From assembly GCF_016744155.1 (NCBI RefSeq), contig NZ_JADGEW010000005.1:1-64000 (forward strand): a stretch of 64,000 bases of DNA, written 5' to 3'. Source of the stretch: Amphritea sp. (GTDB taxonomy: Bacteria; Pseudomonadota; Gammaproteobacteria; Pseudomonadales; Balneatricaceae). Under the pieces are notes generated by a model. The model was not told the origin of the DNA and ran no database searches. It worked only from the letters and a program-made list of their open reading frames with translations. Positions 43,419-56,679 of this stretch are shown one piece after another. How positions within the stretch are numbered: position 1 is the stretch's first letter; each line of letters starts with the position of its first letter. Position numbers and translations under genes: made by a program.

Positions 43419-44249
43419 TTAATGATTGGCATCATTTATTGATACAGCTATTGCCGCTTTCTTAGTTCCGGTTTTCCGTATTTGGATATTGTTAATGATT
43501 GAAACTAAGACGAAACTCAGAAGCATCAGTAAGAACCAAGAGCTGAGTTTTGCTATTGATACCATCTGCCACTCAACTGTCTGATTTGGATAGATCCATA
43601 CGTTGGTATAGGTGGCAATGTTCTCAGCAAACCAGATGAATAAAGCCACCAGAAACCAACCGAGCAGGATTGGCATTTTACGGTGTGTATTTATAACTCT
43701 GAAGTAGATATCTGTCTTGTAAAAAAGAAGTACGGTGGCAGCTAAAAGTAACCATCTCAGGTCCCATATATAGTGATGGGTAAAGAAATTCGCGTAAATT
43801 AAGCTAACCAGCACAATAGTAGCCAGTCTAGAGGGGTAGTAGGAGTACTCAAATTCAAATATTCGCCATACCCGGGCGATGTAACTACCTACCGCACTAT
43901 ACATAAATCCAGTGAACAGAGGCACGTTGCCGATACCAAAGAAATACTCTTCAGGATAGGTCCATGAACCAATTGCGTCAGATGTTTTGAATAGCTCCAT
44001 GACCGTGGCAACGAGATGAAAAACAATAATCACGATGCTCTCTCGGCCGGTTTCAAATTTGAAGACTAAAAGAAATCCCTGGAAAGCGATGGCTGATAAA
44101 AAGATGAAGTCATAGCGATGAATACTGTCTAACGGATACCAGAAACTGGTTGTGATCATTACTGCCAGTAGGAAACCGCCAAAGATACAGGCGTTCGCTT
44201 GCTTTAGACCAAAAAGCCATAGTTCATGAATAAATGCTTTTATCATCAA
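43419..44249 (-). CDS. DUF817 integral membrane protein
   Basis: A 276-residue protein with about eight hydrophobic helices. The central segment [25 protein letters not shown] and the [18 protein letters not shown] region match the DUF817 family, whose function is not known. It starts ATG-ATG. Nothing nearby explains its role; the next gene upstream is a TSUP permease on the same strand, with a palindromic repeat copy between them. Confidence 0.85.
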
Positions 44250-44273
44250 TAGACGTATCTCTTTTTGTTTTTA

Positions 44274-44303
44274 TCGAGCAAGCGGCGAAGCCGCGTCTAG
44301 CAA
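44274..44303 (-). repeat. Dispersed two-hairpin repeat, partial copy (first hairpin only)
   Basis: On the minus strand this reads GCTAGACGCGGCTTCGCCGC followed by TTGCTCG, matching the first half of the repeat at 42371-42436 but with stem GCGGC/GCCGC instead of GTCGC/GCGAC. It lies between the TSUP and DUF817 genes. Confidence 0.65.
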
Positions 44304-44304
44304 C

Positions 44305-45060
44305 TTATCCAAGCCAGCCTGAAATTCCTTTATAGATAACAAAAATTGCCGAGACAGCTGAGACGGTTAAGAGTACCGGCTTGGCGCTTTCGGCGCGAAT
44401 CTTGCCATCTACTTTATGGGCCAGCCAGAAACCGATAAGTACGCCGGGTAGCATCTTAAGGCTTAGCATCGCTATTTCGGTATCGATGTTGCCCTGATGC
44501 ATGAGGGCAAGTATGGAGAAGGGTGTGCCGATTAAAAAGAAGGCGGCCAGTTCGTTACGGATGGTGATGCGGTTTTGTTCCTGATACACCAGCGCCATGG
44601 GCGGGCCACCGACAGATGTTGCGGTACCGATTAATCCGGAGAAGAAACCACCAATTATCAGGCTGATTTTTGAGGTCTGTACTTTGAATACTTTCCAGGT
44701 CAGTAGTACCGCTAATAGCAGTGAGGCACCGAACAGCAGACTCAGGCTCCAGGCTGGAATAGAGACCAGGAGCAGTGCACCTAGCCATGCGCCGGGTAAG
44801 CGGGCGATGATTGCCGGCGCTATTCTGCGCCAGTTCAGCTCACCCTGGTTACTCATCAGCGTTATCCGCGAAACGACTAATACAGATAGGCTGGTCCCTA
44901 AAATCAGAATCGGACCGGGTACATAAGAAGGATTAATCAGGAACAGCAGCGGCGCTGCCACCAAACCAAAACCGATACCAAACCAGGTTTGCAGCACAAT
45001 TCCGCAGGTCACAATCAACAGCGCTGTCAGTTCGGGAAAGGTATAAAGCATCGTATCCAT
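44305..45060 (-). CDS. TSUP (TauE/SafE) family permease
   Basis: A 251-residue membrane protein with about eight helices and a repeat-like two-half architecture. ALLIVTCGIVLQTWFGIGFGLVAAPLLFLINP and FFSGLIGTATSVGGPPMALVYQ are typical TauE/SafE segments. TSUP proteins export or import sulfite, sulfoacetate and other organosulfur or organic anions; the substrate here is unknown. The frame is open to 45153, but that extension is the translated copy of a palindromic repeat, so the start is MDTMLYTFPE at 45060 (or 45051). Confidence 0.88.
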   Translation of the reverse strand: MDTMLYTFPELTALLIVTCGIVLQTWFGIGFGLVAAPLLFLINPSYVPGPILILGTSLSVLVVSRITLMSNQGELNWRRIAPAIIARLPGAWLGALLLVSIPAWSLSLLFGASLLLAVLLTWKVFKVQTSKISLIIGGFFSGLIGTATSVGGPPMALVYQEQNRITIRNELAAFFLIGTPFSILALMHQGNIDTEIAMLSLKMLPGVLIGFWLAHKVDGKIRAESAKPVLLTVSAVSAIFVIYKGISGWLG

Positions 45061-45074
45061 ATCGAAAATAGAGT

Positions 45075-45140
45075 CGCTAGAACAGAGCCTTAGGCTCCAG
45101 CTAGTCGTTAGATGGAAAACTAGGTTTTCCTTGCTAGAAA
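45075..45140 (+). repeat. Dispersed two-hairpin intergenic repeat, copy 3
   Basis: CGCTAGAACA, then hairpin GAGCC-TTA-GGCTC, then GTTAGA and the perfect hairpin GGAAAAC-TAG-GTTTTCC, ending TTGCTAGAAA. The first stem has an entirely different sequence from copy 1 yet pairs perfectly. Confidence 0.75.
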
Positions 45141-45298
45141 GAACCAGCAGCATAGCTTGCTGTTATTAATGAAGCGAGGAGAAATTCAGATTATAACGTT
45201 CTCTACTATGAATGCTGGGCATTGAGTTTTCGCGAAGTGAGTCCGCAGCGACGTCTGGTTGTTCTAGCTCAGGAGGGTTTCTGCACTGTGATTTAGTA

Positions 45299-45346
45299 AT
45301 AAAAAAAGACCCCGCTTCCGATTGGTGCAAATCAGAAGCAGGGTCG
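45299..45346 (-). terminator. Strong intrinsic terminator of the DUF3726 operon
   Basis: Read on the minus strand, GACCCTGCTTCTGATT pairs with AATCGGAAGCGGGGTC (16 bp including two G-U pairs), followed by TTTTTTT. It lies about 75 bases after the DUF3726 stop. Confidence 0.92.
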
Positions 45347-45419
45347 TTTGTATCAAGTGATATCGTTACACCTCTATAGTATCGATAGCACCTAATTTTT
45401 AGCGAAGCAGAGTGTTAAT

Positions 45420-46169
45420 TCAGCGACCACCGGCTCCCTGTCGTGAACGGTCACTGTTTTCAACCAGCACCCCTTCACCGATTTTATTGATCCGGGCCCA
45501 CAGGTCTTCATCGATATCGATGCCGTGATCAACACTGTGTTCCTTGTTTAACTCAACCTGTTCAGCACTGATGTAGCTGGCATTGCGATTGCCCTTCGAA
45601 CGCTGCAAGGAAGAGGTTAGGTCGACCCGGGAGCTACAGATAATGGTCAACGCCTGCTTGTCTTCTTGATTAGAAGTCAGAGTCGTCATCGCTTCACTGT
45701 AGCTAGGGTAACGCTCACCTGCTTTGATCGCGGCGGTGTGCTCGGTTACCGTCTGGCTACCGTTCTGCCAGTAGGCAGCAACGCTGATACCACGGCGACC
45801 ACAATCGGTTAGCGCTTTAAGGATAAACATTCGATTATGGCAGTTATGCACCGTTACTGTAGCGATACCGTTTTCAAGTGCCTTGGCGTGAGCCAGGTCG
45901 ACGGAGGCGGCGATACAATTGAGTGCGCTGCGGCCATTACTATCGATAATCGCCGAAGTACTGTCTTCATAGATGACTGTGCTCAGCGGCTTAGTGCTGT
46001 CTTCACTGATGTAGGGTAGTGCCCGCTGCAATTCAGTCAGTCCATTGAGACCGTGCTTTTCCAGCCACAGAATCATATTGGCGGCATCTTCATAGTTACC
46101 AACATAGTAACCGGTGGCTTCAAAGCAGCGGCGCAGGGCAGCTTTCAGTTCGATCATAGAAACATGCAT
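45420..46169 (-). CDS. DUF3726-type protein, degenerate malate/L-lactate dehydrogenase-family relative
   Basis: A 249-residue soluble protein I associate with DUF3726. Its first 130 residues read like the N-terminal half of the Ldh_2 (malate/L-lactate/ureidoglycolate dehydrogenase, DpkA) family: WLEKHGLNGLTELQRALPYI corresponds to the RG..SHG..RL segment and GIATVTVHNCHNRMF to the V.V.NSNHFG segment. The His of SHG is Asn42 here and the NHFG motif is lost. At 249 residues it is also about 100 shorter than those enzymes. Its start shares one base with the stop of the 573-residue protein, so the two are made together. Family link is my reading, not a database result. Confidence 0.7.
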   Translation of the reverse strand: MHVSMIELKAALRRCFEATGYYVGNYEDAANMILWLEKHGLNGLTELQRALPYISEDSTKPLSTVIYEDSTSAIIDSNGRSALNCIAASVDLAHAKALENGIATVTVHNCHNRMFILKALTDCGRRGISVAAYWQNGSQTVTEHTAAIKAGERYPSYSEAMTTLTSNQEDKQALTIICSSRVDLTSSLQRSKGNRNASYISAEQVELNKEHSVDHGIDIDEDLWARINKIGEGVLVENSDRSRQGAGGR

Positions 46170-47890
46170 CAGAATTCTCCTTCCTGCTGTGGTGCCAGTG
46201 GCATAAACCAGTCGTCGTTGAATGTTCTACCGATATCTTCCAGCAGCGGCGCGCCCTGGAACATTGTGTTACGGACCCATAGCTTGGAACGTGGATCAAA
46301 CTTACCGACACCGAAGAATGCCAGTTTGGCACGTAACAGGTGCATCGGTAGGATCTCGCGGTCCAGCAGATTAGCCTGAATGTCGCCGTAGATGCAGCGG
46401 TTCATGCTCTGAATACGGCGTACGATACCGCGCAGTTTAGGTTGTGCAACCATAAAGCGGGCAGTGCTATGTTCAGGGTGCTCAGTCATATATTCAGACA
46501 GCTGGTCGTAGCATCTACGCACTGCGTAAGCGACACCCAATGCCATCTCTTTATCTTTACCATTCTCGTCGCGGATATCGCCCAGACGGGGCTCCATCTT
46601 CTCTTCCGAACGGTACCAGAAAGTATCCTTGGCACCTTCAGCGGCGAAATCGAACCCCAGGGCCCATTGATAGCGGTTCTCGATAACCTGTTTCAGCTCT
46701 TGCAGCGGCATTACCGGATCAAGATCCTGAAACTCTTCTGCGGAATGATAGTCTTCCAGGTCGTCGACCAACTCTGGATAGAGTTCTAACATCACCGAAA
46801 CTAACATTTCCTGGCCTTGCAGCGAGCAATTGATTTCGCTCCACTGAAGCAGTGCTTCCCAGCTATCGAAGCCGTTTCGGGTATGTTCGCGAATCGCGTC
46901 CAGGTCTTTCAGTACCTGCTGATTGTTGGCTGTTTGCCATTCATCTTCGGTAACCGTTTCTGCGGTGTGCACTGCGCAGCGCTCCAGCAGCTCAGGGAAC
47001 TGTTGCTGAATACGGTGATTGATGTTGCCGAGAACACGGACTCGAGCCAGTGCCAGTTCACGCATCTCGACCCACTGATTAATCAGTAATGGGTGGTTGA
47101 TCAGGTATGGCGCCATACCTAGGCCGGTGGAATTACCGATGCCGAAGAAACGCTTAATGTCAGGCTGCATCGGATTATAGCTTTCGGGTGTCTTGTGCTG
47201 TGCGATATGTTCCGCCTGCAGCAGGCTGAAGTTTCGCAGCATCAGGCAAACAAACATCTCAGCCGAAAAAGGGCGGGCAAAATCGGCATGGCGGCTAGCC
47301 ACTTTTTCCCAGTCGGCCATGCCCAGTTTTCCGCTGCCATATACGGCGGTGGTGCGGTATAGGTAACCTACTTTAGCGATCTGCGCCACATCCGGCTGTT
47401 TGCCGTTGGCCAACTGATCGACTACATAATCAAAGTTACGGGCGCTACGGTTGGCACGGGATAGAACAAAGACCCGGGCATCGACCCGGCCTGCTTCCTG
47501 TTTAGGCACATTCTGACGCAGTTTTTCCAGATAGATTTCATCAACTTCGCCGTCCACCAGGGCCATTGTCAGGTCCCACTTGGTGGCGATTACTCGGTCG
47601 TTACGCTCATCCGGCGAGAGATAATCGGAGAACAGTACAAAGCTGTAAAGCTTATTAGGTGTAGTGATCTCGTAGACGACAGTACCGTAGCCCAGCTCAT
47701 CCAGTTCAAAACGGGCTGGTTCAATCTGCCAGCGCTCGCGCATAATCCGACGCACCAGAGTACGCATAAAACTAAGTCGACTCTGATGGATAGCGCCCAG
47801 TCGTTCCAGGTCCATGACCTGGTTGATCGGGCGCAATGGTAGTGCGTTGTCGCCTCTCAGGGCAGCTTGTATAGCAGCTGGCGTGGTCAT
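46169..47890 (-). CDS. Unrecognised conserved-looking 573-residue soluble protein
   Basis: I do not recognise this protein. It has 573 residues, no signal peptide and no membrane helix. Notable segments are KWDLTMALVDGE (104-115), YRTTAVYGSGKLGMADW (178-194), the glycine-rich GIGNSTGLGMAPYL (250-263) and KFDPRSKLWVRNTMFQGAPL (530-549). The C-terminal half is helical and acidic. None is a cofactor motif I can name. It has clear GAGG Shine-Dalgarno, normal codon use and is translationally coupled to DUF3726. Its divergent neighbours (LysR, aldehyde dehydrogenase, M19-like, BCCT, Rid) suggest an enzyme in catabolism of an imported betaine-like compound. Confidence 0.85.
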   Translation of the reverse strand: MTTPAAIQAALRGDNALPLRPINQVMDLERLGAIHQSRLSFMRTLVRRIMRERWQIEPARFELDELGYGTVVYEITTPNKLYSFVLFSDYLSPDERNDRVIATKWDLTMALVDGEVDEIYLEKLRQNVPKQEAGRVDARVFVLSRANRSARNFDYVVDQLANGKQPDVAQIAKVGYLYRTTAVYGSGKLGMADWEKVASRHADFARPFSAEMFVCLMLRNFSLLQAEHIAQHKTPESYNPMQPDIKRFFGIGNSTGLGMAPYLINHPLLINQWVEMRELALARVRVLGNINHRIQQQFPELLERCAVHTAETVTEDEWQTANNQQVLKDLDAIREHTRNGFDSWEALLQWSEINCSLQGQEMLVSVMLELYPELVDDLEDYHSAEEFQDLDPVMPLQELKQVIENRYQWALGFDFAAEGAKDTFWYRSEEKMEPRLGDIRDENGKDKEMALGVAYAVRRCYDQLSEYMTEHPEHSTARFMVAQPKLRGIVRRIQSMNRCIYGDIQANLLDREILPMHLLRAKLAFFGVGKFDPRSKLWVRNTMFQGAPLLEDIGRTFNDDWFMPLAPQQEGEF

Positions 47891-48394
47891 TATTGTTTTC
47901 CTCGTTAAATAGCGATTCGAGACTGAGTGGAAACTATTGCGCTTGCCTGAACTTCGTTAAAAATAGTCTAAAAGTGCCTGTTTACAGCAGTAAACTCCGC
48001 ATTCTCGATTATTTTCGCCTCGCTCAGCCTTCGCTTATAACGTTTCCATACTTTCTCGGCACATCTTGTTTTTTTTATTAGCAGCATAGATGTGTTCGAA
48101 ACCTCTTTTTTATTTGCTCTGCTGGTTTCGTTTGTAATGGTTATATGCAGAGCTATACGAGGAAGGGTCAGGCTGTCTTATCAACATAGTAGATAAGTAT
48201 GGCTCAGTTCTGCGGATAGATCAGAATCTGAACAGCCAGCCTTCCGGTATGCCACTTATCATGGGGCAGAAAGCTGATCGCGCACAAATCAGAAGGTTAT
48301 ATCGCTTAATAAGAGAAACTTATCAAAATAGCTCAACCTATTATTTTTTCTATGTCTCCAGCCCTGTTGTAAATCGCCGCGGAGGTTAAAAATT
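47891..48394. promoter_or_regulatory. Regulatory spacer with GATAAG/CTTATC elements
   Basis: This 504-base gap lies between the LysR stop and the 573-residue gene and has no convincing ORF. It holds CTTATC-N9-GATAAG (48177-48197), a further CTTATC at 48253-48258 and ATAAG-AGAAA-CTTAT (48309-48323). The last has the same form as the palindrome in the LysR/aldehyde dehydrogenase spacer. It should contain the promoter of the leftward operon, with an unusually long leader if transcription starts near the palindrome. Confidence 0.5.
48309..48323. promoter_or_regulatory. Putative LysR operator (second site)
   Basis: ATAAG-AGAAA-CTTAT is a perfect 5-bp inverted repeat with a 5-base spacer and satisfies the LysR box T-N11-A. 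It shares spacing and half-sites with the palindrome at 49337-49355. Confidence 0.5.
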
Positions 48395-49297
48395 TTATGT
48401 TTTTGCTGGATTGTTACGCGCCAGAATAAAGTCGACCAGTGCTTGGGCCGGTGGTGTTAATGACTTATTAGTGAGCTTAACAATTCCGATGCGGCGCACC
48501 ACTCTTGGCGTACTTAATGGAATAAAGCACAGCGTTTCGCTGTCTTTGGGTACCGCATAGCGGGGTAAAGTGGTCACACCAAAGCCCGCTTCAAGCATCG
48601 CAATCAACGAGATCATATTTGAGATATAAAACTGGGAGTGGCCCAGTAGAGGTCTGGCTTCACTGTCTTCCAGCAGGCGGGAGGTACCGTTACTTATTAG
48701 CCGGTAGTTACGCAGTTCTTTCCAATGTAACTCTTTATGTTCAGCCAGCGGGTGATCTTTTGGGCAGACTACGCCGATCTGATCTTCCCAGATCGGGATA
48801 AAGGTTTTGTCACTATGTTCCTGTTCGTGGAACAGATGAGCGATACCGAAATCGACCTGTTGGTTTTCTACCATCTTGTAGACCGCATCGGAATTATCAT
48901 CAAAGAAGCTGATGTGCAATTCAGGCGTGTCGTTAACAAATTCAAGCAACAGTTCAGGTAATACCTGACTGGCAATAGAAGGTACAGATGCGAGTCGCAG
49001 ATGGCCGGTTTTGTGTTCCGCTAACAGGGTCATATCCTGGGATATACGATCGTGGTGTTCAATCAGCTCCTTTGCCTTGGGCAGAAAATACTGTCCGAAA
49101 GGGGTCAGCTCTGTCTTGGCGGTCTTAGCGTTGCGCTTTTCAAAGAGCGACTCACCCAGCTTGTTCTCCAAGTCACGAATCGACAGCGAGATTGCCGGTT
49201 GGGTGCGGTGGGCTTTCTCCGCTGCAGCATGAAATCCTTTCAGCTCAGAAACCCAGACAAAGTGACGCAATTGGGCAATCTTGAATTCCGGCAGCAT
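48395..49297 (-). CDS. LysR-family transcriptional regulator of the catabolic cluster
   Basis: A 300-residue LysR regulator. The helix-turn-helix is KGFHAAAEKAHRTQPAISLSIRDLENKLG (about residues 20-48), followed by LFEKR...ELTPFG, and a periplasmic-binding-like effector domain starts at about residue 90 (LRLASVPSIASQVLPELL). It is divergent from the aldehyde dehydrogenase operon with a 134-base spacer that carries a clear palindrome, and codirectional with the 573-residue/DUF3726 operon. It probably senses the substrate or an intermediate of the pathway. Confidence 0.93.
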   Translation of the reverse strand: MLPEFKIAQLRHFVWVSELKGFHAAAEKAHRTQPAISLSIRDLENKLGESLFEKRNAKTAKTELTPFGQYFLPKAKELIEHHDRISQDMTLLAEHKTGHLRLASVPSIASQVLPELLLEFVNDTPELHISFFDDNSDAVYKMVENQQVDFGIAHLFHEQEHSDKTFIPIWEDQIGVVCPKDHPLAEHKELHWKELRNYRLISNGTSRLLEDSEARPLLGHSQFYISNMISLIAMLEAGFGVTTLPRYAVPKDSETLCFIPLSTPRVVRRIGIVKLTNKSLTPPAQALVDFILARNNPAKT

Positions 49298-49336
49298 AAA
49301 GCCTCCTGTGATGATTTAGTAACGGTTACAAATTCC

Positions 49337-49355
49337 CGATAAGAAAACCTTATCG
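49337..49355. promoter_or_regulatory. Putative LysR operator between the regulator and aldehyde dehydrogenase genes
   Basis: CGATAAG-AAAAC-CTTATCG is a perfect 7-bp inverted repeat with a 5-base spacer and contains T-N11-A. It is centred about 86 bases before the aldehyde dehydrogenase start and 48 bases before the LysR start, the usual place for a LysR site. AT-rich promoter DNA follows on the dehydrogenase side. Confidence 0.7.
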
Positions 49356-49431
49356 CGGAATATTATTTATTAATTATTTTTATTAAAGCACAGGCCCTAT
49401 GATTGATCCATATACATGCAGGAGATCAAAA

Positions 49432-50877
49432 ATGTCTGATTCAGTTTTTCGTAATTACATTGCAGGTGAGTGGGTCGAAGGTAACAAAGGCTACGTGGCA
49501 AATATTAGCCCCGCCGATATCAGCGATGTGATCGGCCAGTATGCTCAGGCTGATAAAGCTCAGACTGAAGCGGCGATTGCTGCAGCAGCAGTTGGCCAGC
49601 TAGAGTGGCAAAAAAGTGGTCTGGAACAGCGCTACTCAGTATTAATGGCCATCGGTGATGAGTTGATCGCCCGTAAAGATGAACTGGGAGAACTCCTCGC
49701 TCGTGAAGAGGGTAAGACTCAGGCTGAAGGCGCGGGTGAAACTTATCGCTCCGGTCAGTTTTTCCATTACTACGCCGCGGAAGTTCTGCGTCAGATGGGT
49801 GAAACTGCTGATTCTGTTCGCCCGGGTATCGAAATTGAAACTCGCCGCGAGCCGGTAGGTGTTGTCGGTATCATCACGCCGTGGAACTTCCCAACGGCAA
49901 CCGGTGCCTGGAAGATTGCTCCGGCGCTGGCGTTTGGTAACGCTGTCGTTTGGAAACCTGCTAATCAGGTGCCTGCGTCTGCCTGGGCTTTGACTGAAAT
50001 TATCTCCCGTCAGGGACTGCCTGCCGGCACTTTAAATCTGGTCATGGGGCCGGGTGCGGAAGTTGGCGATGTGCTGATCAACTCTCGTGGTATCAATGCT
50101 CTGACCTTCACCGGATCTTTAGAAACGGGTCGTAAGGTTGCCGTGGCAACGGCGGTTAACCTGGTGAAGTGTCAATTAGAAATGGGCAGTAAGAATGCGC
50201 TGGTCGTTCTCGATGATGCAGATCTGGATAACGCTGTTGAGTGTGCCGTGGGTGGCGCGTTTGGTGGTACAGGGCAGAAGTGTACGGCATCTTCCCGACT
50301 GATCGTTACTGAAGGTATCCACGACCGTTTCGTTGAGGCGATGGTTGAGCGGATGAAGAAGCTGGTTGTGGGCCACCCACTGAAAGCGGGTGTACATATC
50401 GGTGCCGTTGCTGATGCCCGCCAGATGGAGCAGAACCTACGCTACCTGGAAACGGCTAAAACCGAAGGTGGCAAGCTGGTTTACGGTGGCGATGTACTGA
50501 CTGAAGAGACCGAAGGCTACTACATGCAGCCTGCGTTATTCACCGAAACCACTAACGCTATGACCATTAACCGTGAAGAAGCTTTTGCGCCGATCGCCTG
50601 CATTATCAAGGTTAAGGATTATGAAGAAGCGCTGGCGACTCTGAATGATACCAACTTCGGTTTGACCGGGGGTATTTGCACGCAGTCACTGAAATATGCG
50701 TCTGACTTTAAACGTAACGCCAAGACGGGTTGTGTGATGATTAACCTGGCAACTGCAGGTACCGATTATCACGTTCCATTTGGTGGCCGTAAGGATTCCA
50801 GCTTTGGCCCACGGGAACAGGGAACTTACGCCAAAGAGTTTTACACCGTTGTGAAGACAACCTACATCAGCGCTTAA
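49432..50877 (+). CDS. NAD(P)-dependent aldehyde dehydrogenase (alpha-ketoglutarate semialdehyde dehydrogenase-like)
   Basis: A 481-residue ALDH with TPWNFPTA (150-157), FTGS (226-229), the general base Glu250 in QLEMGSKN and the nucleophile Cys284 in GTGQKCTASSR, so it should be active. The closest resemblance I recall is to alpha-ketoglutarate semialdehyde/2,5-dioxovalerate dehydrogenases, which end the breakdown of hydroxyproline and some betaines; substrate is inference. An ATG at 49399 opens the frame, but the start at 49432 (MSDSVFRN) has AGGAGA correctly placed. First gene of the rightward operon. Confidence 0.92.
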   Translation: MSDSVFRNYIAGEWVEGNKGYVANISPADISDVIGQYAQADKAQTEAAIAAAAVGQLEWQKSGLEQRYSVLMAIGDELIARKDELGELLAREEGKTQAEGAGETYRSGQFFHYYAAEVLRQMGETADSVRPGIEIETRREPVGVVGIITPWNFPTATGAWKIAPALAFGNAVVWKPANQVPASAWALTEIISRQGLPAGTLNLVMGPGAEVGDVLINSRGINALTFTGSLETGRKVAVATAVNLVKCQLEMGSKNALVVLDDADLDNAVECAVGGAFGGTGQKCTASSRLIVTEGIHDRFVEAMVERMKKLVVGHPLKAGVHIGAVADARQMEQNLRYLETAKTEGGKLVYGGDVLTEETEGYYMQPALFTETTNAMTINREEAFAPIACIIKVKDYEEALATLNDTNFGLTGGICTQSLKYASDFKRNAKTGCVMINLATAGTDYHVPFGGRKDSSFGPREQGTYAKEFYTVVKTTYISA

Positions 50878-50913
50878 CGCTTTATTTACGAGCTTAGGCC
50901 AGGAGGTATTGCT

Positions 50914-51900
50914 ATGCATAACGAAATGATCGTAATTGACGGGCTCCAGTATTCCAACTGGAACCGCAAGATCTTCGAACAGCTACGCGAAGGTGGCGTA
51001 ACGATGGTGCATGCCACCATCGTTTACCACGAACAAATTCGTGAAACTCTGATGCGTATTTCCGAGTGGAATCGTCACTTTGAAATGAACAGCGATCTGA
51101 TCATGCCGGTCAGAAGCGCAGCAGATATCCGTCTGGCAAAGCAGCTGGGCAAAGTGGGCATCATGTTCGGCGCTCAGAACTGTTCTCCGATTGAAGATGA
51201 TATCGGTATGGTCGAGGTGATGCGTGAGCTAAACCTGATGATCATGCAGCTGACCTACAACAACCAGAGCCTGTTGGCCTGCGGTTGCTACGAAGCGGAA
51301 GACAGTGGTGTCACTCGCTTTGGTCGCCAGGCGATCAAAGAGATGAACCGGGTCGGCATGATTATCGATATGAGCCATAGCGGCGAGCGCAGCACTTTAG
51401 ATGCGATAGATATTTCTGAGCGTCCGATAGTGATCTCCCATGCTAACCCACTAAGCTTCCACGAAGCCAAGCGCAATAAGTCCGACAAGGTACTGAAGGC
51501 GCTGGGTGAATCCGGTGGTCTGCTGGGCTTCAGTCTGTATCCGTTCCACCTTAAGAACGGCCCGGATTGCACGTTGGACGATTTCTGCGACATGGTTGCC
51601 GGTACCGCTGATCTGATGGGTATTGAGCAGATCGGCATCGGTACTGACCTGTGCCAGGAGCAGCCACTGTCAATTCTGGAGTGGATGCGAAATGGTCGCT
51701 GGTCAAAAGCCATGGACTACGGCGAGGGCTCTAAGGCGAATGCCGACTGGCCACGTCCGTTGTCCTGGTTCCGCGATAGCCGTGACTTCCCGAATCTGAC
51801 TAATGGTCTTCAGGCGCGAGGCTTCAGCAATGAAGACGTGGCTAAGATCATGGGTCTGAACTGGCTTAACTTTCTCGATGAAGGGCTAAAGCCGCAATAA
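50914..51900 (+). CDS. M19 (renal dipeptidase)-like protein lacking the HxD metal ligands
   Basis: A 328-residue TIM-barrel amidohydrolase-like protein. In active M19 dipeptidases the N-terminus reads VIDGHxD; here it reads VIDGLQY (7-13), so the first two metal ligands are missing, and the bridging Glu region is FGAQN. The later histidines of IIDMSHSG (H155) and VISHANP (H176) and the GIGTDL segment remain. The IDGL...NWNR.IFEQLREGG pattern is what I recall for the dipeptidase-like gene in Pseudomonas glycine betaine catabolism clusters. AGGAGG precedes the ATG. Its role is unknown; a peptide substrate is unlikely. Confidence 0.85.
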   Translation: MHNEMIVIDGLQYSNWNRKIFEQLREGGVTMVHATIVYHEQIRETLMRISEWNRHFEMNSDLIMPVRSAADIRLAKQLGKVGIMFGAQNCSPIEDDIGMVEVMRELNLMIMQLTYNNQSLLACGCYEAEDSGVTRFGRQAIKEMNRVGMIIDMSHSGERSTLDAIDISERPIVISHANPLSFHEAKRNKSDKVLKALGESGGLLGFSLYPFHLKNGPDCTLDDFCDMVAGTADLMGIEQIGIGTDLCQEQPLSILEWMRNGRWSKAMDYGEGSKANADWPRPLSWFRDSRDFPNLTNGLQARGFSNEDVAKIMGLNWLNFLDEGLKPQ

Positions 51901-51920
51901 CCTTGTTTTTATAACCTATA

Positions 51921-51960
51921 TGGCTCAGTCCGTTGAGAGTTCAGTCTGAGCCATTGCTTT
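51921..51960 (+). terminator. Hairpin between the M19-like and BCCT genes
   Basis: TGGCTCAG (51921-51928) pairs with CTGAGCCA (51946-51953), followed by the modest T-rich tail TTGCTTT. It may attenuate or stabilise the transcript rather than fully end it. Confidence 0.5.
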
Positions 51961-52002
51961 ACCTGATAACTAATAAATATAAAGATCCGTCAGGAGACTA
52001 TA

Positions 52003-53583
52003 ATGAGTAATACAACACAGGCTGCTGTTGCCCGGCAACAGACAGCAACACCCGAGGCCTCTATGGCCAATAACAAATTTCTAGCAGGTGTCGACCTGCC
52101 GGTATTCTTTATTAGTGGTGGAGTACTGGTGCTGTTCGCCGCATTGGCTCTGTACGATATCGACATGATGTCTGGCTGGGTTAATAGCGCATTTGCTACC
52201 TCAACTAAATATTTTGGCGCCTACTGGCAGGTGCTATTACTACTGACCTTTGTGATCGGTCTGTTTCTGACTATTGGTCGTACTGGTTCTGTGGTTCTGG
52301 GTGGTGTTAAGTCACCGGAGATGCCAACCTTCCAGTGGATCTCAGTAATCATGTGTACCCTGCTTGCCGGTGGTGGCGTGTTCTGGGCTGCGGCTGAGCC
52401 GATGGCACACTTCACTTCAGCACCGCCATTATTCTCGGGTACTGAAGCAGGTTCTGTTGATGCCGCTTACAACGCGCTGGCACAGAGCTTCATGCACTGG
52501 GGCTTTCTAGCCTGGGCGATTCTGGGTAGTCTGACCGGTATCGTGTACATGTACCTGCACTATGAAAAAGGTCTGCCGCTGAAGCCCCGTACGCTGCTGT
52601 ACCCGGTGTTTGGTGACAAAGTTATGACCGGCCCATTGGGTGCTATCGTTGACTCAAGCTGTGTACTGGCAGTAGTTGCGGGTACGGTGGGGCCGATCGG
52701 TTTCCTTGGCCTGCAGGTGAGCTTCGGTCTGGAAAAACTCTTTGGTATTCCTAACACCTATATGACTCAGGTAATGATATTGGTCGGCTTGATCTGTATC
52801 TATACCATCTCTGCGGTTAGTGGTGTTACCAAAGGGATTCAGATTCTCAGCCGTGCCAACGTAATTCTGGCGGTTGTCCTGATGGCTTTCATTCTGATCT
52901 TTGGGCCTACCGCGTTTATTATTGACGGCTACCTGCATTCGTTCGGCATCTACTTAGATCAGTTCATTCCGATGGCAACGTTCCGTGCTAGCCCTGGCTG
53001 GTTGGACTGGTGGACAGTATTCTTCTGGGGTTGGTTCCTGGGTTACGGTCCACTGATGGCGATGTTCGTTGCGCGTATTTCTAAAGGTCGTACGATCCGT
53101 GAAATGATACTGCTGATCTCTGTTGTTGCACCGATTATCACTTGCTTCTGGTTCACTATTGTAGGTGGTAGCGGTCTGGCATACGAACTGGCTAATCCAG
53201 GCGTAATCTCTGAACCGTTCACCGGTTTTAATCTACCAGCAGCACTGTTGGCAATTACTGAACAGCTACCGATGGGCTTCATGATTTCGGTTCTGTTTTT
53301 AATCCTGACGACAATCTTTGTAGCCACTACCGGTGACTCCATGACCTACGCAGTATCGATGGTTATGACCGGTACCGATCATCCACAACCGTCTATTCGT
53401 GTGTTCTGGGGCATCATGATGGGTGTCGTTGCTGCACTGTTGATCTCTATCGGCTCCGGCGGTATCTCTGCGCTGCAATCGTTCATTGTAGTGACGGCGG
53501 TCCCTGTCTCTTTGGTGTTGCTACCATCGCTTTGGACGGCACCGCAGATCGCTCGCAAGATGGCCGACGAGCAGGGGCTTTAA
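52003..53583 (+). CDS. BCCT family transporter (betaine/carnitine/choline type) with altered aromatic box
   Basis: A 526-residue secondary transporter with twelve predicted helices. Family segments are GGGVFWAAAEPMAHF (123-137) and WWTVFFWGWFLGYGPLMAMFVARISKGRTIRE (336 on). By alignment to BetP FYWAWWISWSP, the substrate-box aromatic residues become F340, W344, F345 and Y348, so two of the three Trp positions are Phe and Tyr. It is expected to import a zwitterionic quaternary amine or sulfonium compound. CAGGAGA precedes the ATG. It follows the M19-like gene and belongs to the LysR-linked operon. Confidence 0.94.
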   Translation: MSNTTQAAVARQQTATPEASMANNKFLAGVDLPVFFISGGVLVLFAALALYDIDMMSGWVNSAFATSTKYFGAYWQVLLLLTFVIGLFLTIGRTGSVVLGGVKSPEMPTFQWISVIMCTLLAGGGVFWAAAEPMAHFTSAPPLFSGTEAGSVDAAYNALAQSFMHWGFLAWAILGSLTGIVYMYLHYEKGLPLKPRTLLYPVFGDKVMTGPLGAIVDSSCVLAVVAGTVGPIGFLGLQVSFGLEKLFGIPNTYMTQVMILVGLICIYTISAVSGVTKGIQILSRANVILAVVLMAFILIFGPTAFIIDGYLHSFGIYLDQFIPMATFRASPGWLDWWTVFFWGWFLGYGPLMAMFVARISKGRTIREMILLISVVAPIITCFWFTIVGGSGLAYELANPGVISEPFTGFNLPAALLAITEQLPMGFMISVLFLILTTIFVATTGDSMTYAVSMVMTGTDHPQPSIRVFWGIMMGVVAALLISIGSGGISALQSFIVVTAVPVSLVLLPSLWTAPQIARKMADEQGL

Positions 53584-53596
53584 TTAATAACTGAAG

Positions 53597-53740
53597 TCCG
53601 ATCGTTTCACTTGTCCGCTCACTGCGTTTGTCCGAGGTCCGAAAAAACGGACAGGCGCAGGGGGCGGGTTTCTGCTTTTAACGGACAAGTTGACTCCGGC
53701 AACGTCGGACAAGCGTAGCGTTCGGGCTTCGGATCTCTAT
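53597..53740. repeat. Complex palindromic element with repeated GTCCG/CGGAC blocks
   Basis: Between the BCCT and Rid genes the core TTGTCCG or its complement occurs repeatedly. ACTTGTCCG (53609-53617) and CGGACAAGT (53682-53690) form the outer arms. Inside them TGCGTTTGTCCG (53623-53634) pairs with CGGACAGGCGCA (53648-53659) with two G-U pairs. A further CGGACAAG lies at 53706-53713. This is a nested hairpin element, not a simple terminator; it may be a REP- or MITE-like insertion. Confidence 0.7.
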
Positions 53741-53761
53741 CTTTTATAAAAGTGAATTACT

Positions 53762-54139
53762 ATGAAACAAGCTGTAAAGACTGAACTGTTCGCCTCTAAG
53801 GCGCCACTGGAATGGGCTGTTATCGCTAACGGTCAGCTGTCTACTGCGCAGATTCCTATTAATGCTGAAGGCCAGGTTGTTGAAGGTGGCATTGAGGCGC
53901 AGGCACGTCAGACGATGGAAAACTTTAAGCACACCATTGAAGCGGCTGAGCTGACCATGGCTGATGTAACCCAGGTACTGATCTATGTGACTGATCGAAG
54001 CCAGTTACCAGTATTCAACAAAGTTTACGCTGACTACTTTGAAGCACCATACCCGAACCGTGCGGCGATGATTGTTGCCGGTCTGGCCCGTGAAGAGATG
54101 CTGTGTGAAGTTGTTGCCTATGCGGCAGTGCCTCGCTAA
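53762..54139 (+). CDS. Rid (RidA/YjgF) family protein
   Basis: A 125-residue Rid protein. LEWAVIANGQLSTAQIPIN, VTQVLIYVTD and PYPNRAAMIVAGLA lead to the catalytic Arg100 (equivalent of Arg105 in RidA) and Glu116 in CEVVAYAAV. RidA hydrolyses reactive enamines and imines to keto acids and ammonia. Other Rid subgroups act in specific catabolic pathways, which fits this operon. A nested palindrome precedes the gene, so expression may differ from that of the BCCT gene. Confidence 0.92.
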   Translation: MKQAVKTELFASKAPLEWAVIANGQLSTAQIPINAEGQVVEGGIEAQARQTMENFKHTIEAAELTMADVTQVLIYVTDRSQLPVFNKVYADYFEAPYPNRAAMIVAGLAREEMLCEVVAYAAVPR

Positions 54140-54146
54140 GCGGGAG

Positions 54147-54211
54147 TAGCTAGAACGTCGCTACGCTACTGCTAGTGGCTAGACGGAAAACTTCGTTGTC
54201 CTTGCTAGAAA
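54147..54211 (+). repeat. Dispersed two-hairpin intergenic repeat, copy 2
   Basis: It starts TAGCTAGAACGTCGCTACG, continues with GGCTAGACGGAAAACTTCG, and ends TTGCTAGAAA, closely matching copy 1 at 42371-42436. Its first hairpin (GTCGC-TAC-GCTAC) has one unpaired position, and the second reads GGAAAACTTCGTTGTCC. Confidence 0.75.
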
Positions 54212-54265
54212 CAGCGTTCTGGCTTTAGCGTTTTATCCCAGATTGTCCCTTGCCGATAGGCTGTT

Positions 54266-54297
54266 GGCGCATTGGTTAACCGGTGCGCCTTTTTTTG
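54266..54297 (+). terminator. Intrinsic terminator after the Rid gene
   Basis: GGCGCA-TTGGTTAACCGG-TGCGCC is followed by T7. The loop itself contains GGTTAACC, extending the stem. It closes the LysR-linked operon. Confidence 0.92.
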
Positions 54298-54489
54298 TGG
54301 ATCAAATATAGGTTTCTTAGTTATTTATAATGACTATTTGCATCTCCTTTTAAGTAAGTTTTTTTTATAAGCCATTGATAATGGTTGCAGATGAATAGAG
54401 CGTGATTGATCGTTAATTTTATTCATGGCTGTTGATATTGACCCCCCCGTCTCATCTCCCTAGAATGCACTCAGTTTTTGGTAATCCTG

Positions 54490-54680
54490 TTGTAAAATAG
54501 GATTTTAAACGGGAAGTTGGTGCGTACTGTTTTTTAGCAAGAATGCTTAAACAGGCAATGCCTACACTGCCCCCGCAACGGTAATCGAGTTAAGACATTA
54601 CAAAAGCCACTGTGTCATACATGGGAAGGCGTAATGTTGGGATTCTTTCCACTCGAAAGTCCGGAGACCGGCCTCAAACA
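54490..54680 (+). promoter_or_regulatory. Cobalamin riboswitch
   Basis: The leader of btuB carries the elements of the adenosylcobalamin aptamer in order: AACGGGAAGTTGGTGCG-type P3 entry (about 54508-54524), the TGCCCCCGCAACGGTAA core (about 54568-54584), AAAGCCACTG B12-box-like sequence (54603-54612), and the closing AAGTCCGGAGACCGGCC (54657-54673). It should reduce btuB expression, and probably the operon's, when cobalamin is plentiful. The expression platform lies between here and 54855. Confidence 0.93.
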
Positions 54681-54855
54681 CTATTCAGTCGGCATAGCGG
54701 AGGGCTAATGCAACGGCAGCACATTCCTGTGGTTTTCGTTCTGGCTTGTTAGCTAGTTCATGTCTTGCGGTTTTCGTGTTTCTGTTCATTCCTGCTTGTT
54801 AGTGCCGTTAATCTAATTGACGTGCGGCGGGCACGTACAGGACACCATCTGACTC

Positions 54856-56679
54856 ATGAAAAAATTATCCAGCGCCATTCTAGCAGCGGCGTGTTGTTAT
54901 TCCTCTTTGGTTGTAGCTCAGCAAACAACGACCCTCAATAAAGTATTTGTAACTGCTTCTCGTACTGCTCAGTCGGTAGATGAAACGTTGGCTTCAGTTA
55001 CCTTGATTACACGAAAAGATATTGAACGTTCACAGGCAATTACTGTGGCTGATATATTGCAGAAAACGCCAGGTGTCGTGATCACCAACAGTGGTGGTAT
55101 TGGTAAAGCGAGTAGTGTTTACCTACGCGGCACATCAACTAAAGATCTGTTGATTTTGATTGATGGCATCCGTATCGGCTCAGCTACGCAAGGGCAAGTA
55201 AATGTTCAGGAGCTTAACCTTAGTCAGGTTGACCGTATCGAAATTGTTCGTGGCCCACGTTCCTCTTTGTATGGTTCTGATGCTGCCGGTGGTGTTATTC
55301 AAATTTTCACTCGACGTGGTGCTGGTAAGCTTACACCTTCCTTTACTATTTCAGCAGGATCAGACAGTACCTCAATAGCAAAAATTGGTTTACAGGGTGG
55401 GGATCAGAACCGTTGGTTCAATGTAGCAGCATCAGGTATTGACACTGAGGGATTTGATGCGAAAACCTCGGGTGATGACGACGATGACGGTTACTATAAT
55501 AAGGGTTTGCTGCTGAGAGTAGGGCAGCGCTTTGATGGTGGTCATGAACTTGAAGGGCTTTTCACCATCACCGATTCCGCAAACGAGTTTGATGGTACTT
55601 ACGCAACAAGTCCCGATCGTGGCGATAAGCTAATTAAGGTGCTAGCTGCTAGTGGCACAATTGTTGTGTCTGACAGCTGGCTTGTTGACCTGTCGGCAGG
55701 TCGTAGTCTGAACCAAAGCACATCATTTACCGGTAACGTTTTCAAAAGCCGTTTTGAAACAATACGTGATTCTTTTAGTCTTCAAAATGATGTGCTTGTC
55801 AGTGATGATAATCAGCTTATTTTTGGTTTGGATTACCTCAAAGATCAGGTTGATTCGAACAATACTTATGCTGAGACTGAGCGCAGTAACTGGGCAGGTT
55901 TTGCCCAATATCAATTAGCACTGGGCACGTCTGATTTGCAATTCAGTGTACGTGTTGATGATAACGAGCAATTTGGCTCACATACGACAGGCGGATTCGC
56001 CTGGGGTATTCCACTTAACGATAATGTTAATGTTATCGCGTCATACGGCACGGCTTTTAAAGCCCCTTCTTTCAATGATCTGTATTACCCGGGTAGTGGC
56101 AATACTGAGTTGATACCAGAAGAGTCTGATACATATGAACTCAGTCTAAAAGGGAAGCGCAAAGGGGTTAACTGGCAGACTTCGATTTACCAAACATCCT
56201 TTGAAAATATGATTGCCTGGGCACCGATTGCTCCTGGTTCTTATACATGGAAACCTAGCAATATTAATTCAGCCCGCATCCGTGGTCTGGAACTCAGTGC
56301 TGATTATCAATGGCAGCAGTGGTCTTTAAATGGAAATGTCTCTTTCATTGATCCTGAAAACCGTTCAGGTGTAAATAAAGGTAATCGCTTAAAGCGTCGC
56401 GCCGATAGAATCGCGAATATAAATATCGACCGTGACTTTGGTGCGCTGGCGTTAGGTGCAACATTACATGCTGAAGGTCGCCGTTACACCAACGACAGTA
56501 ATACCGACTCTTTAGAAGGCTTCGGGACTGTAGATCTGCGTGCTGCTTATCAGTTAGCCGCTGCATGGCAAGTGCGGACAAAGCTTGGAAACTTACTAGA
56601 AAAACAGTACCAAACAGTTAGCGGTTATAACCAGTCTGGCTTAACCGCCTTATTTACACTGGCTTATCAGCCTCAATAA
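54856..56679 (+). CDS. btuB: TonB-dependent outer-membrane cobalamin receptor BtuB
   Basis: A 607-residue outer-membrane receptor for vitamin B12. Signal peptide about 1-21. A TonB-box-like VFVTASR follows, then the plug domain with ITVADILQKTPGVVITNSGG and the BtuB-type RIEIVRGPRSSLYGSDAAGGVIQIFT, and a C-terminal barrel. A calcium-binding-like acid loop (TSGDDDDDGYYNKG) is visible near residue 210. The riboswitch immediately upstream confirms the cobalamin role. Confidence 0.95.
   Translation: MKKLSSAILAAACCYSSLVVAQQTTTLNKVFVTASRTAQSVDETLASVTLITRKDIERSQAITVADILQKTPGVVITNSGGIGKASSVYLRGTSTKDLLILIDGIRIGSATQGQVNVQELNLSQVDRIEIVRGPRSSLYGSDAAGGVIQIFTRRGAGKLTPSFTISAGSDSTSIAKIGLQGGDQNRWFNVAASGIDTEGFDAKTSGDDDDDGYYNKGLLLRVGQRFDGGHELEGLFTITDSANEFDGTYATSPDRGDKLIKVLAASGTIVVSDSWLVDLSAGRSLNQSTSFTGNVFKSRFETIRDSFSLQNDVLVSDDNQLIFGLDYLKDQVDSNNTYAETERSNWAGFAQYQLALGTSDLQFSVRVDDNEQFGSHTTGGFAWGIPLNDNVNVIASYGTAFKAPSFNDLYYPGSGNTELIPEESDTYELSLKGKRKGVNWQTSIYQTSFENMIAWAPIAPGSYTWKPSNINSARIRGLELSADYQWQQWSLNGNVSFIDPENRSGVNKGNRLKRRADRIANINIDRDFGALALGATLHAEGRRYTNDSNTDSLEGFGTVDLRAAYQLAAAWQVRTKLGNLLEKQYQTVSGYNQSGLTALFTLAYQPQ

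Follow-up and report, generated by a model that had tools for sequence, protein, structure and literature searches.

Which compound is handled by seven genes that lie in two units around a single LysR gene, and of which one encodes a protein of no recognised family? The question was raised by an initial annotation, made from sequence alone, of a 64,000-nucleotide stretch of Amphritea sp. (NCBI RefSeq assembly GCF_016744155.1, contig NZ_JADGEW010000005.1, positions 1 to 64,000; hereafter the window). The leftward unit encodes the unplaced 573-residue protein (U573) and a DUF3726 protein, with the gene of the LysR-type regulator in the same direction, and the rightward unit an aldehyde dehydrogenase (ALDH), an M19-like protein, a BCCT transporter and a Rid protein. 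The cluster is genuine and conserved, and its catabolic genes are regulated together; an unplaced enzyme pair, U573 and DUF3726, is part of it. With slightly better than even confidence, we read it as one LysR regulon by which an N-methylated betaine-type amine is imported and degraded, homarine being the likeliest single candidate. Marine phytoplankton contain homarine and similar betaines in abundance. The exchange of Rid for Ldh_2 between related clusters and the shared operator are what is added to prior knowledge. Papers given by PMC number are cited from excerpts of their text.

We compared the window with 80 genome loci, 17 plasmid loci (from 168 records) and 10 Ruegeria loci (from 52), giving 108 loci. 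Genes within 9 kb of U573 were counted with profile models in six frames. Where loci are rich in G+C, antisense open reading frames (ORFs) had made an earlier ORF-based selection of genes less clear, and the six-frame census was used for all counts except that of formate dehydrogenase. DUF3726 was present in 107 loci, M19-like in 102, ALDH in 89, LysR in 81, BCCT in 66, Rid in 50, Ldh_2 in 32, SoxA and SoxB in 8 each and a demethylase-type DMGDH in 5. In the sole locus without DUF3726 (L075), a contig end cuts inside U573. The same gene families surround relatives of U573 in many genera, and a six-gene set of LysR, ALDH, M19-like, U573, DUF3726 and Ldh_2 was found in 10 out of 10 Ruegeria loci examined. 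Furthermore, U573 and DUF3726 are naturally fused in two genomes, of Mesorhizobium (L025; 814 residues) and Poseidonibacter (L097; 802 residues). When the L097 fusion was aligned with the single proteins, the DUF3726 row was not matched to the right half, and this alignment was left unused. The co-occurrence and the fusions imply that the two units belong together, with U573, DUF3726 and M19-like as the core.

A palindrome common to both units adds to this link. The consensus RATAAG-N5-CTTATY occurred twice in the window, against 0.02 occurrences expected, with one site ahead of each unit (Table 1), so that the two units can be read as one regulon. Both places were occupied in 11 loci (window included), and one site in ten more. 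Judged by these motifs, the seven genes look like one LysR regulon. The proposal of the initial annotation that both units form a single LysR-linked cluster is thus borne out by the operator-like palindrome and by the co-occurrence of the units in other genomes.

A clue to the chemistry comes from two genes that replace each other. Rid (50 loci) and Ldh_2 (32 loci) occurred together in none of the 108 loci, against about 15 expected if they were independent (hypergeometric 8e-12), although these counts are themselves not independent, since they include related loci, hand-picked plasmids and Ruegeria, and the best 80 of at least 581 species-genome relatives. Where the flanks were complete (71 loci), Rid was present in 39, Ldh_2 in 21 and both in none. 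The 32 Ldh_2 loci gave no Rid match at E<1e-5, and the 50 Rid loci gave none to Ldh_2 above 40 bits; the models had been trained on cluster members and could overlook a distant Rid where Ldh_2 is present. Mapped on the tree of U573, Rid requires 12 changes and Ldh_2 requires 11, at least 9 of each being forced by well-supported branches; the tree was made by a quick method, has long branches (L104, L136 and others) and serves to indicate repeated interchange alone. For instance, deep in the Rid clade of the window, Ldh_2 occupies the place of Rid behind BCCT in a Marinomonas locus (L035). The reverse is seen in Sulfitobacter (L021) and Phaeobacter (L022), where Rid is nested within the clade of Ldh_2 loci.

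Both families act on imines. The window Rid protein matched PF01042 (Ribonuc_L-PSP) with 74.7 bits. A PNRAA arginine (and a glutamate) is conserved in 51 cluster Rids, the arginine in more than 90% of them, window included; the conserved Rid arginine is essential for imine hydrolysis (PMC4433059). Among solved structures, delta1-piperideine-2-carboxylate reductase (1wtj/2cwf/2cwh) is closest to the Ldh_2 partner (354.8 bits, next 232.2); this reductase is of the DpkA type, and DpkA carries out reductive methylamination of pyruvate (PMC6237917). Exclusion, repeated interchange and the shared action on imines together suggest one imine with two fates. Hence, the pathway probably passes through an imine that is hydrolysed in the window organism and reduced elsewhere, the window cluster having no Ldh_2 gene, unlike its sister clusters.

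U573 had no match in Pfam, NCBIfam or PHROGs at the limits used, and none among the sequences of the PDB (phmmer, E<=10). Its profile gave only weak matches to PDB chains (best E 0.48). The protein is therefore as unrecognised as first described, and no already characterised homologue was found in the libraries searched. Sampling of the class yielded relatives in 16 of 369 genomes. They were also detected in 52 of 54 Ruegeria genomes and in 168 of 72,556 plasmid records, and as at least 581 confirmed stretches in a species-genome collection. The best 80 of these 581 or more were analysed, and within them the nearest relatives are from Amphritea, Marinobacterium and Neptunomonas (89 to 79% identity). 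A relative also occurs in Poseidonibacter, a member of the Campylobacterota. Single matches in a Bacillales and an Anaerolineae metagenome-assembled genome may be binning errors, and one scan of viral contigs confirmed no relative. U573 represents an unplaced family and is probably the key enzyme.

A distant branch of U573 (31-34% identity) was examined in three plasmid loci, where U573, a small partner and M19 stand under an IclR regulator. These loci lie on pSymB of S. meliloti, and on Variovorax and Alloyangia plasmids (L134, L135 and L136), and M19-like genes are present in them; SSADH and Rid genes occur near the U573 relative in L134 and L136. Elsewhere, plasmid pPGA1_262 of Phaeobacter inhibens DSM 17395 (L022) has two places that match U573, of which the one examined is Rid-type and adjoins genes annotated as dimethylsulfoniopropionate (DMSP) demethylation. 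A protein with TPR and sulfotransferase features (Pfam Sulfotransfer_3 in L044 only), following a protein of about 690-910 residues, recurs before U573 clusters in L044, L051, L052 and L054.

The DUF3726 protein matched PF12525 with 77.6 bits (cut-off 22.1), and PF02615 (Ldh_2) partially, with 35.8 bits, which is below the Pfam cut-off of 38.8. The Ldh_2 profile match spans the first 127 columns, and residues 1-110 and 192-230 align with YiaK 1-115 and 295-333, with no other part aligned. By these alignments, what DUF3726 retains of the Ldh_2 fold is limited to roughly the first 130 residues and one C-terminal segment. It shares the N-terminal region with DpkA, whereas the middle of the fold is absent. 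A role of DUF3726 as imine reductase was rejected, because most of the Ldh_2 fold is missing, including the cofactor-binding middle. By alignment, DUF3726 also lacks the Ser-His pair that we take to be typical of Ldh_2 enzymes. This pair was present in only 11 of 15 Ldh_2 partners, and the rejection therefore leans on the missing fold. The connection to DpkA drawn in the initial annotation thus holds for the pathway of the relatives, which includes a DpkA-like enzyme, but not for DUF3726 itself. A text search for DUF3726 found no paper in the library that was searched.

The M19-like protein matched PF01244 (Peptidase_M19) with 275.6 bits, and the closest solved chain, with full-length similarity, is 2i5g, an 'amidohydrolase' (252 bits). 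M19 dipeptidases bind metal through an HxD motif. In nearly all of 68 sequences, however, DxLQY replaces this motif and Gln88 replaces the Glu of GliJ, while two later His and a late Asp are kept; half of the dipeptidase metal site is lost. The family name is hence supported by Pfam, but a true dipeptidase was rejected on the metal ligands, as HxD and the bridging Glu are not present. The 2i5g protein has the same loss of HxD and the same Glu-to-Gln change, in a different gene neighbourhood; we take it to be P. aeruginosa PA5396, beside dimethylglycine genes.

The ALDH and BCCT proteins were assigned to families without a substrate. ALDH scored 509.2 bits against Pfam Aldedh and fell below every curated NCBIfam cut-off shown. 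Its best NCBIfam model was alpha-ketoglutaric semialdehyde (KGSA) dehydrogenase, with 482 bits against a cut-off of 770, and the suggested resemblance to KGSA dehydrogenases thus allows no substrate to be assigned. BCCT scored 502.7 bits against PF02028 (cut-off 27), 338.9 bits against NF047988 (below the cut-off of 650) and 334.5 bits against TIGR00842 (below 407.55).

From these families we infer the order of steps, the enzyme complex, the chemistry and the substrate of the following route. BCCT would import an N-methylated betaine-type amine, on which U573 and DUF3726 would act jointly, probably as one complex, in the first or an early step. The M19-like protein would then hydrolyse a C-N bond and ALDH would oxidise the released aldehyde, leaving an imine or enamine of a 2-oxo acid. 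In the window organism, Rid would hydrolyse this imine to the 2-oxo acid and an amine, which would be methylamine if the N-methyl group is retained. In sister clusters, the DpkA-like Ldh_2 would instead reduce it to an N-methyl amino acid, to be demethylated by a complex resembling sarcosine oxidase or N-methylglutamate dehydrogenase.

The idea of a betaine or N-methyl amine, already put forward from the gene content, gained support from BCCT genes in 66 of the 108 loci, from glycine-betaine-type ABC transporter genes in some locus records, and from N-methyl-amino-acid oxidases within 9 kb in 8 of the 108. The latter are SoxA/SoxB-like genes (heterotetrameric sarcosine-oxidase-like), and none of these 8 loci was of Rid type; Sox-like genes lie slightly further out in L027 and TM1040. 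They belong to more than one sub-clade: those of Phaeobacter, TM1040, Shinella and Roseateles are true SoxA, and HTCC2148 and Halieaceae have a branch that scores below the SoxA cut-off. The Acinetobacter relative sits in a dimethylamine-type operon. The 451-residue protein that precedes the Ruegeria MGD-like genes was considered as a methylamide synthetase, but had no NCBIfam match at E 1e-20.

Homarine fits because of the betaine transport, the N-methyl group, the imine and the presence of the cluster in Ruegeria, a genus that includes a homarine degrader. In its favour, Mgd takes part in homarine catabolism (PMC13390433). It is our best single guess for the substrate, held with somewhat less than even confidence. 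On homarine, U573-DUF3726 would open the ring, C6 would be lost as formate via the M19-like protein, and ALDH oxidation would yield the N-methylimine of 2-oxoglutarate, with 2-oxoglutarate and methylamine as products here and N-methylglutamate elsewhere. A weak hint of formate release is that formate dehydrogenase alpha scored over its cut-off beside U573 in L053, L062 and L073 (3 of 90 loci clustered). More specifically, U573-DUF3726 might be a new two-part enzyme opening the pyridinium ring of homarine or a similar betaine, in which half an imine-reductase fold was recruited as a subunit, combined with interchangeable endings (Rid giving methylamine and 2-oxoglutarate, Ldh_2 giving N-methylglutamate). 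In that case, it would depend on the ending whether neighbouring cells are supplied with methylamine. We consider this full version speculative and rather unlikely. As to published work, R. pomeroyi draws down homarine (PMC12817926) and is without a confirmed homarine transporter in the text of PMC9723723, and PMC13390433 cites a 2026 paper (Ferrer-Gonzalez et al., doi 10.1038/s41564-026-02313-7) on an operon for homarine catabolism in marine bacteria. If that operon holds the families described here, the cluster is partly known already. The operon is presumably named homABCDER, whose six letters match the six-gene set of Ruegeria; compared with this set, the window has Rid in place of Ldh_2.

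Several observations weigh against our reading of an N-methylated betaine regulon, in addition to the relatedness of the loci noted above. The palindrome lies within 300 bases of LysR in 21 of the 81 LysR-bearing loci (Oceanospirillales-type, Pseudomonas, Marinobacter and one Halieaceae), and the motif is hence limited to part of the family. Neither Rid nor Ldh_2 was found in 26 of the 108 loci, some of which are cut by contig ends. A genome-wide search for the branch below the SoxA cut-off found such MGD-like genes in 10 of 20 Ldh_2-type and 4 of 21 Rid-type genomes (Fisher p 0.052), with a search query taken from one of the 20 Ldh_2-type genomes. The window's own genome has no MGD-like gene. 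Moreover, its only SoxA relative stands at 35% and no gln_synth_III was found above cut-off, so that the N-methylglutamate route is not evident in this genome. The SoxA-like neighbours were not upheld as N-methylglutamate dehydrogenase. Some Rid-type loci have other demethylase-like neighbours, a Rieske oxygenase in L019 and FAD enzymes in L021, which suggests that the N-methyl group may leave earlier. Finally, strain DSS-3 grew more poorly on homarine than on trigonelline (PMC8269262), and a scan of the R. pomeroyi megaplasmid alone found no U573.

The same imine-based regulon could also serve another betaine, for example trigonelline or proline betaine, or else a demethylated cyclic amino acid; U573-DUF3726 would then act at a late step and not on a pyridinium ring. 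This alternative has a real but minor chance of being correct. It can draw on the betaine transporters, on a DpkA-like enzyme with a solved relative that is a reductase of cyclic imines, on growth of R. pomeroyi on trigonelline (PMC8269262), and on Rieske-type neighbours in some loci, although these lie outside the conserved set. The trigonelline pathway likewise degrades an N-methylpyridinium betaine, but it begins with the oxygenase TgnA/TgnB (PMC8269262), whereas Pfam recognised no oxygenase family among the genes of the window cluster.

It is improbable that the substrate is a non-methylated amine or amino-acid derivative with coincidental Sox neighbours. This could be supposed from the divergent relatives of S. 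meliloti, Variovorax and Alloyangia, where IclR, M19 and different transporters accompany U573, and where two of the three loci also have SSADH and Rid genes close by. Against it, most transporters in the branch to which the window belongs are of betaine type, and Sox-like genes from distinct sub-clades are repeatedly found next to this branch. Very improbable is a non-catalytic U573-DUF3726 that serves the hydrolase and ALDH as a regulatory or scaffold pair. DUF3726 is indeed half of an enzyme in degenerate form and U573 matches no known enzyme, but the U573 alignment (69 sequences) has 75 invariant columns, rich in Arg, Trp, Lys, His, Asp and Glu as is typical of an active site, and no other cluster gene is an obvious first enzyme.

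All seven ORFs were found at the positions claimed, in two units with one LysR gene, and Pfam agrees with all six family names while having no family for U573. LysR is co-directional with U573-DUF3726 (504-base gap) and divergent from the ALDH unit (101-base gap); an alternative start of ALDH is possible at a Met 11 codons further in. The stop of U573 and the start of DUF3726 share TGATG, preceded by AGGAAGGAG, which makes the proposed translational coupling plausible. The strong terminators reported at both cluster ends were recovered as the two strongest terminator-like sites within 44000-56000, one per unit end. In this region 18 such sites were observed, against 11.6 in shuffles, so that the weaker ones mean little.

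Table 1. Positions of the cluster genes, candidate operators and terminator-like sites in the window.
Feature	Position	Strand	Basis or remark
Terminator-like site ending the leftward unit	45308..45345	-	16-pair stem and T-run
DUF3726 protein, 249 residues	45420..46169	-	ORF list; Pfam PF12525
U573, 573 residues, unplaced family	46169..47890	-	ORF list; no family match
Palindrome AATAAGAGAAACTTATC, candidate LysR operator of the leftward unit	48308..48324		between LysR and U573
LysR-type regulator, 300 residues	48395..49297	-	Pfam LysR_substrate and HTH_1
Palindrome GATAAGAAAACCTTATC, candidate LysR operator	49338..49354		LysR/ALDH divergent gap; aligned; also present in relatives
Aldehyde dehydrogenase (ALDH)	49399..50877	+	Pfam Aldedh
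M19-like hydrolase with altered metal site	50914..51900	+	Pfam PF01244
BCCT transporter	52003..53583	+	Pfam PF02028
RidA-family protein, predicted imine/enamine hydrolase	53762..54139	+	Pfam PF01042
Terminator-like site ending the rightward unit	54266..54289	+	terminator scan

Two neighbours lie outside these ends. A TauE/SafE-family permease gene (44305-45153, minus strand) follows the leftward unit, and a relative of it follows U573-DUF3726 in about 10 close loci. On the other side, a cobalamin riboswitch (RF00174, 101.3 bits) at 54462-54690 on the plus strand lies upstream of a TonB-dependent receptor-like ORF (54856-56679).

As of 2021, no homarine degradation genes had been described according to the excerpted text of PMC8269262. 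The altered M19 and the broken Ldh_2 can be seen as re-used enzymes, and they call for caution with automatic labels such as 'membrane dipeptidase' and 'Ldh-like'. If our reading is true, a widespread and unnamed protein family would be a key enzyme of marine betaine traffic. The Rid or Ldh_2 gene would then be a marker that predicts whether nitrogen is released as methylamine or retained.

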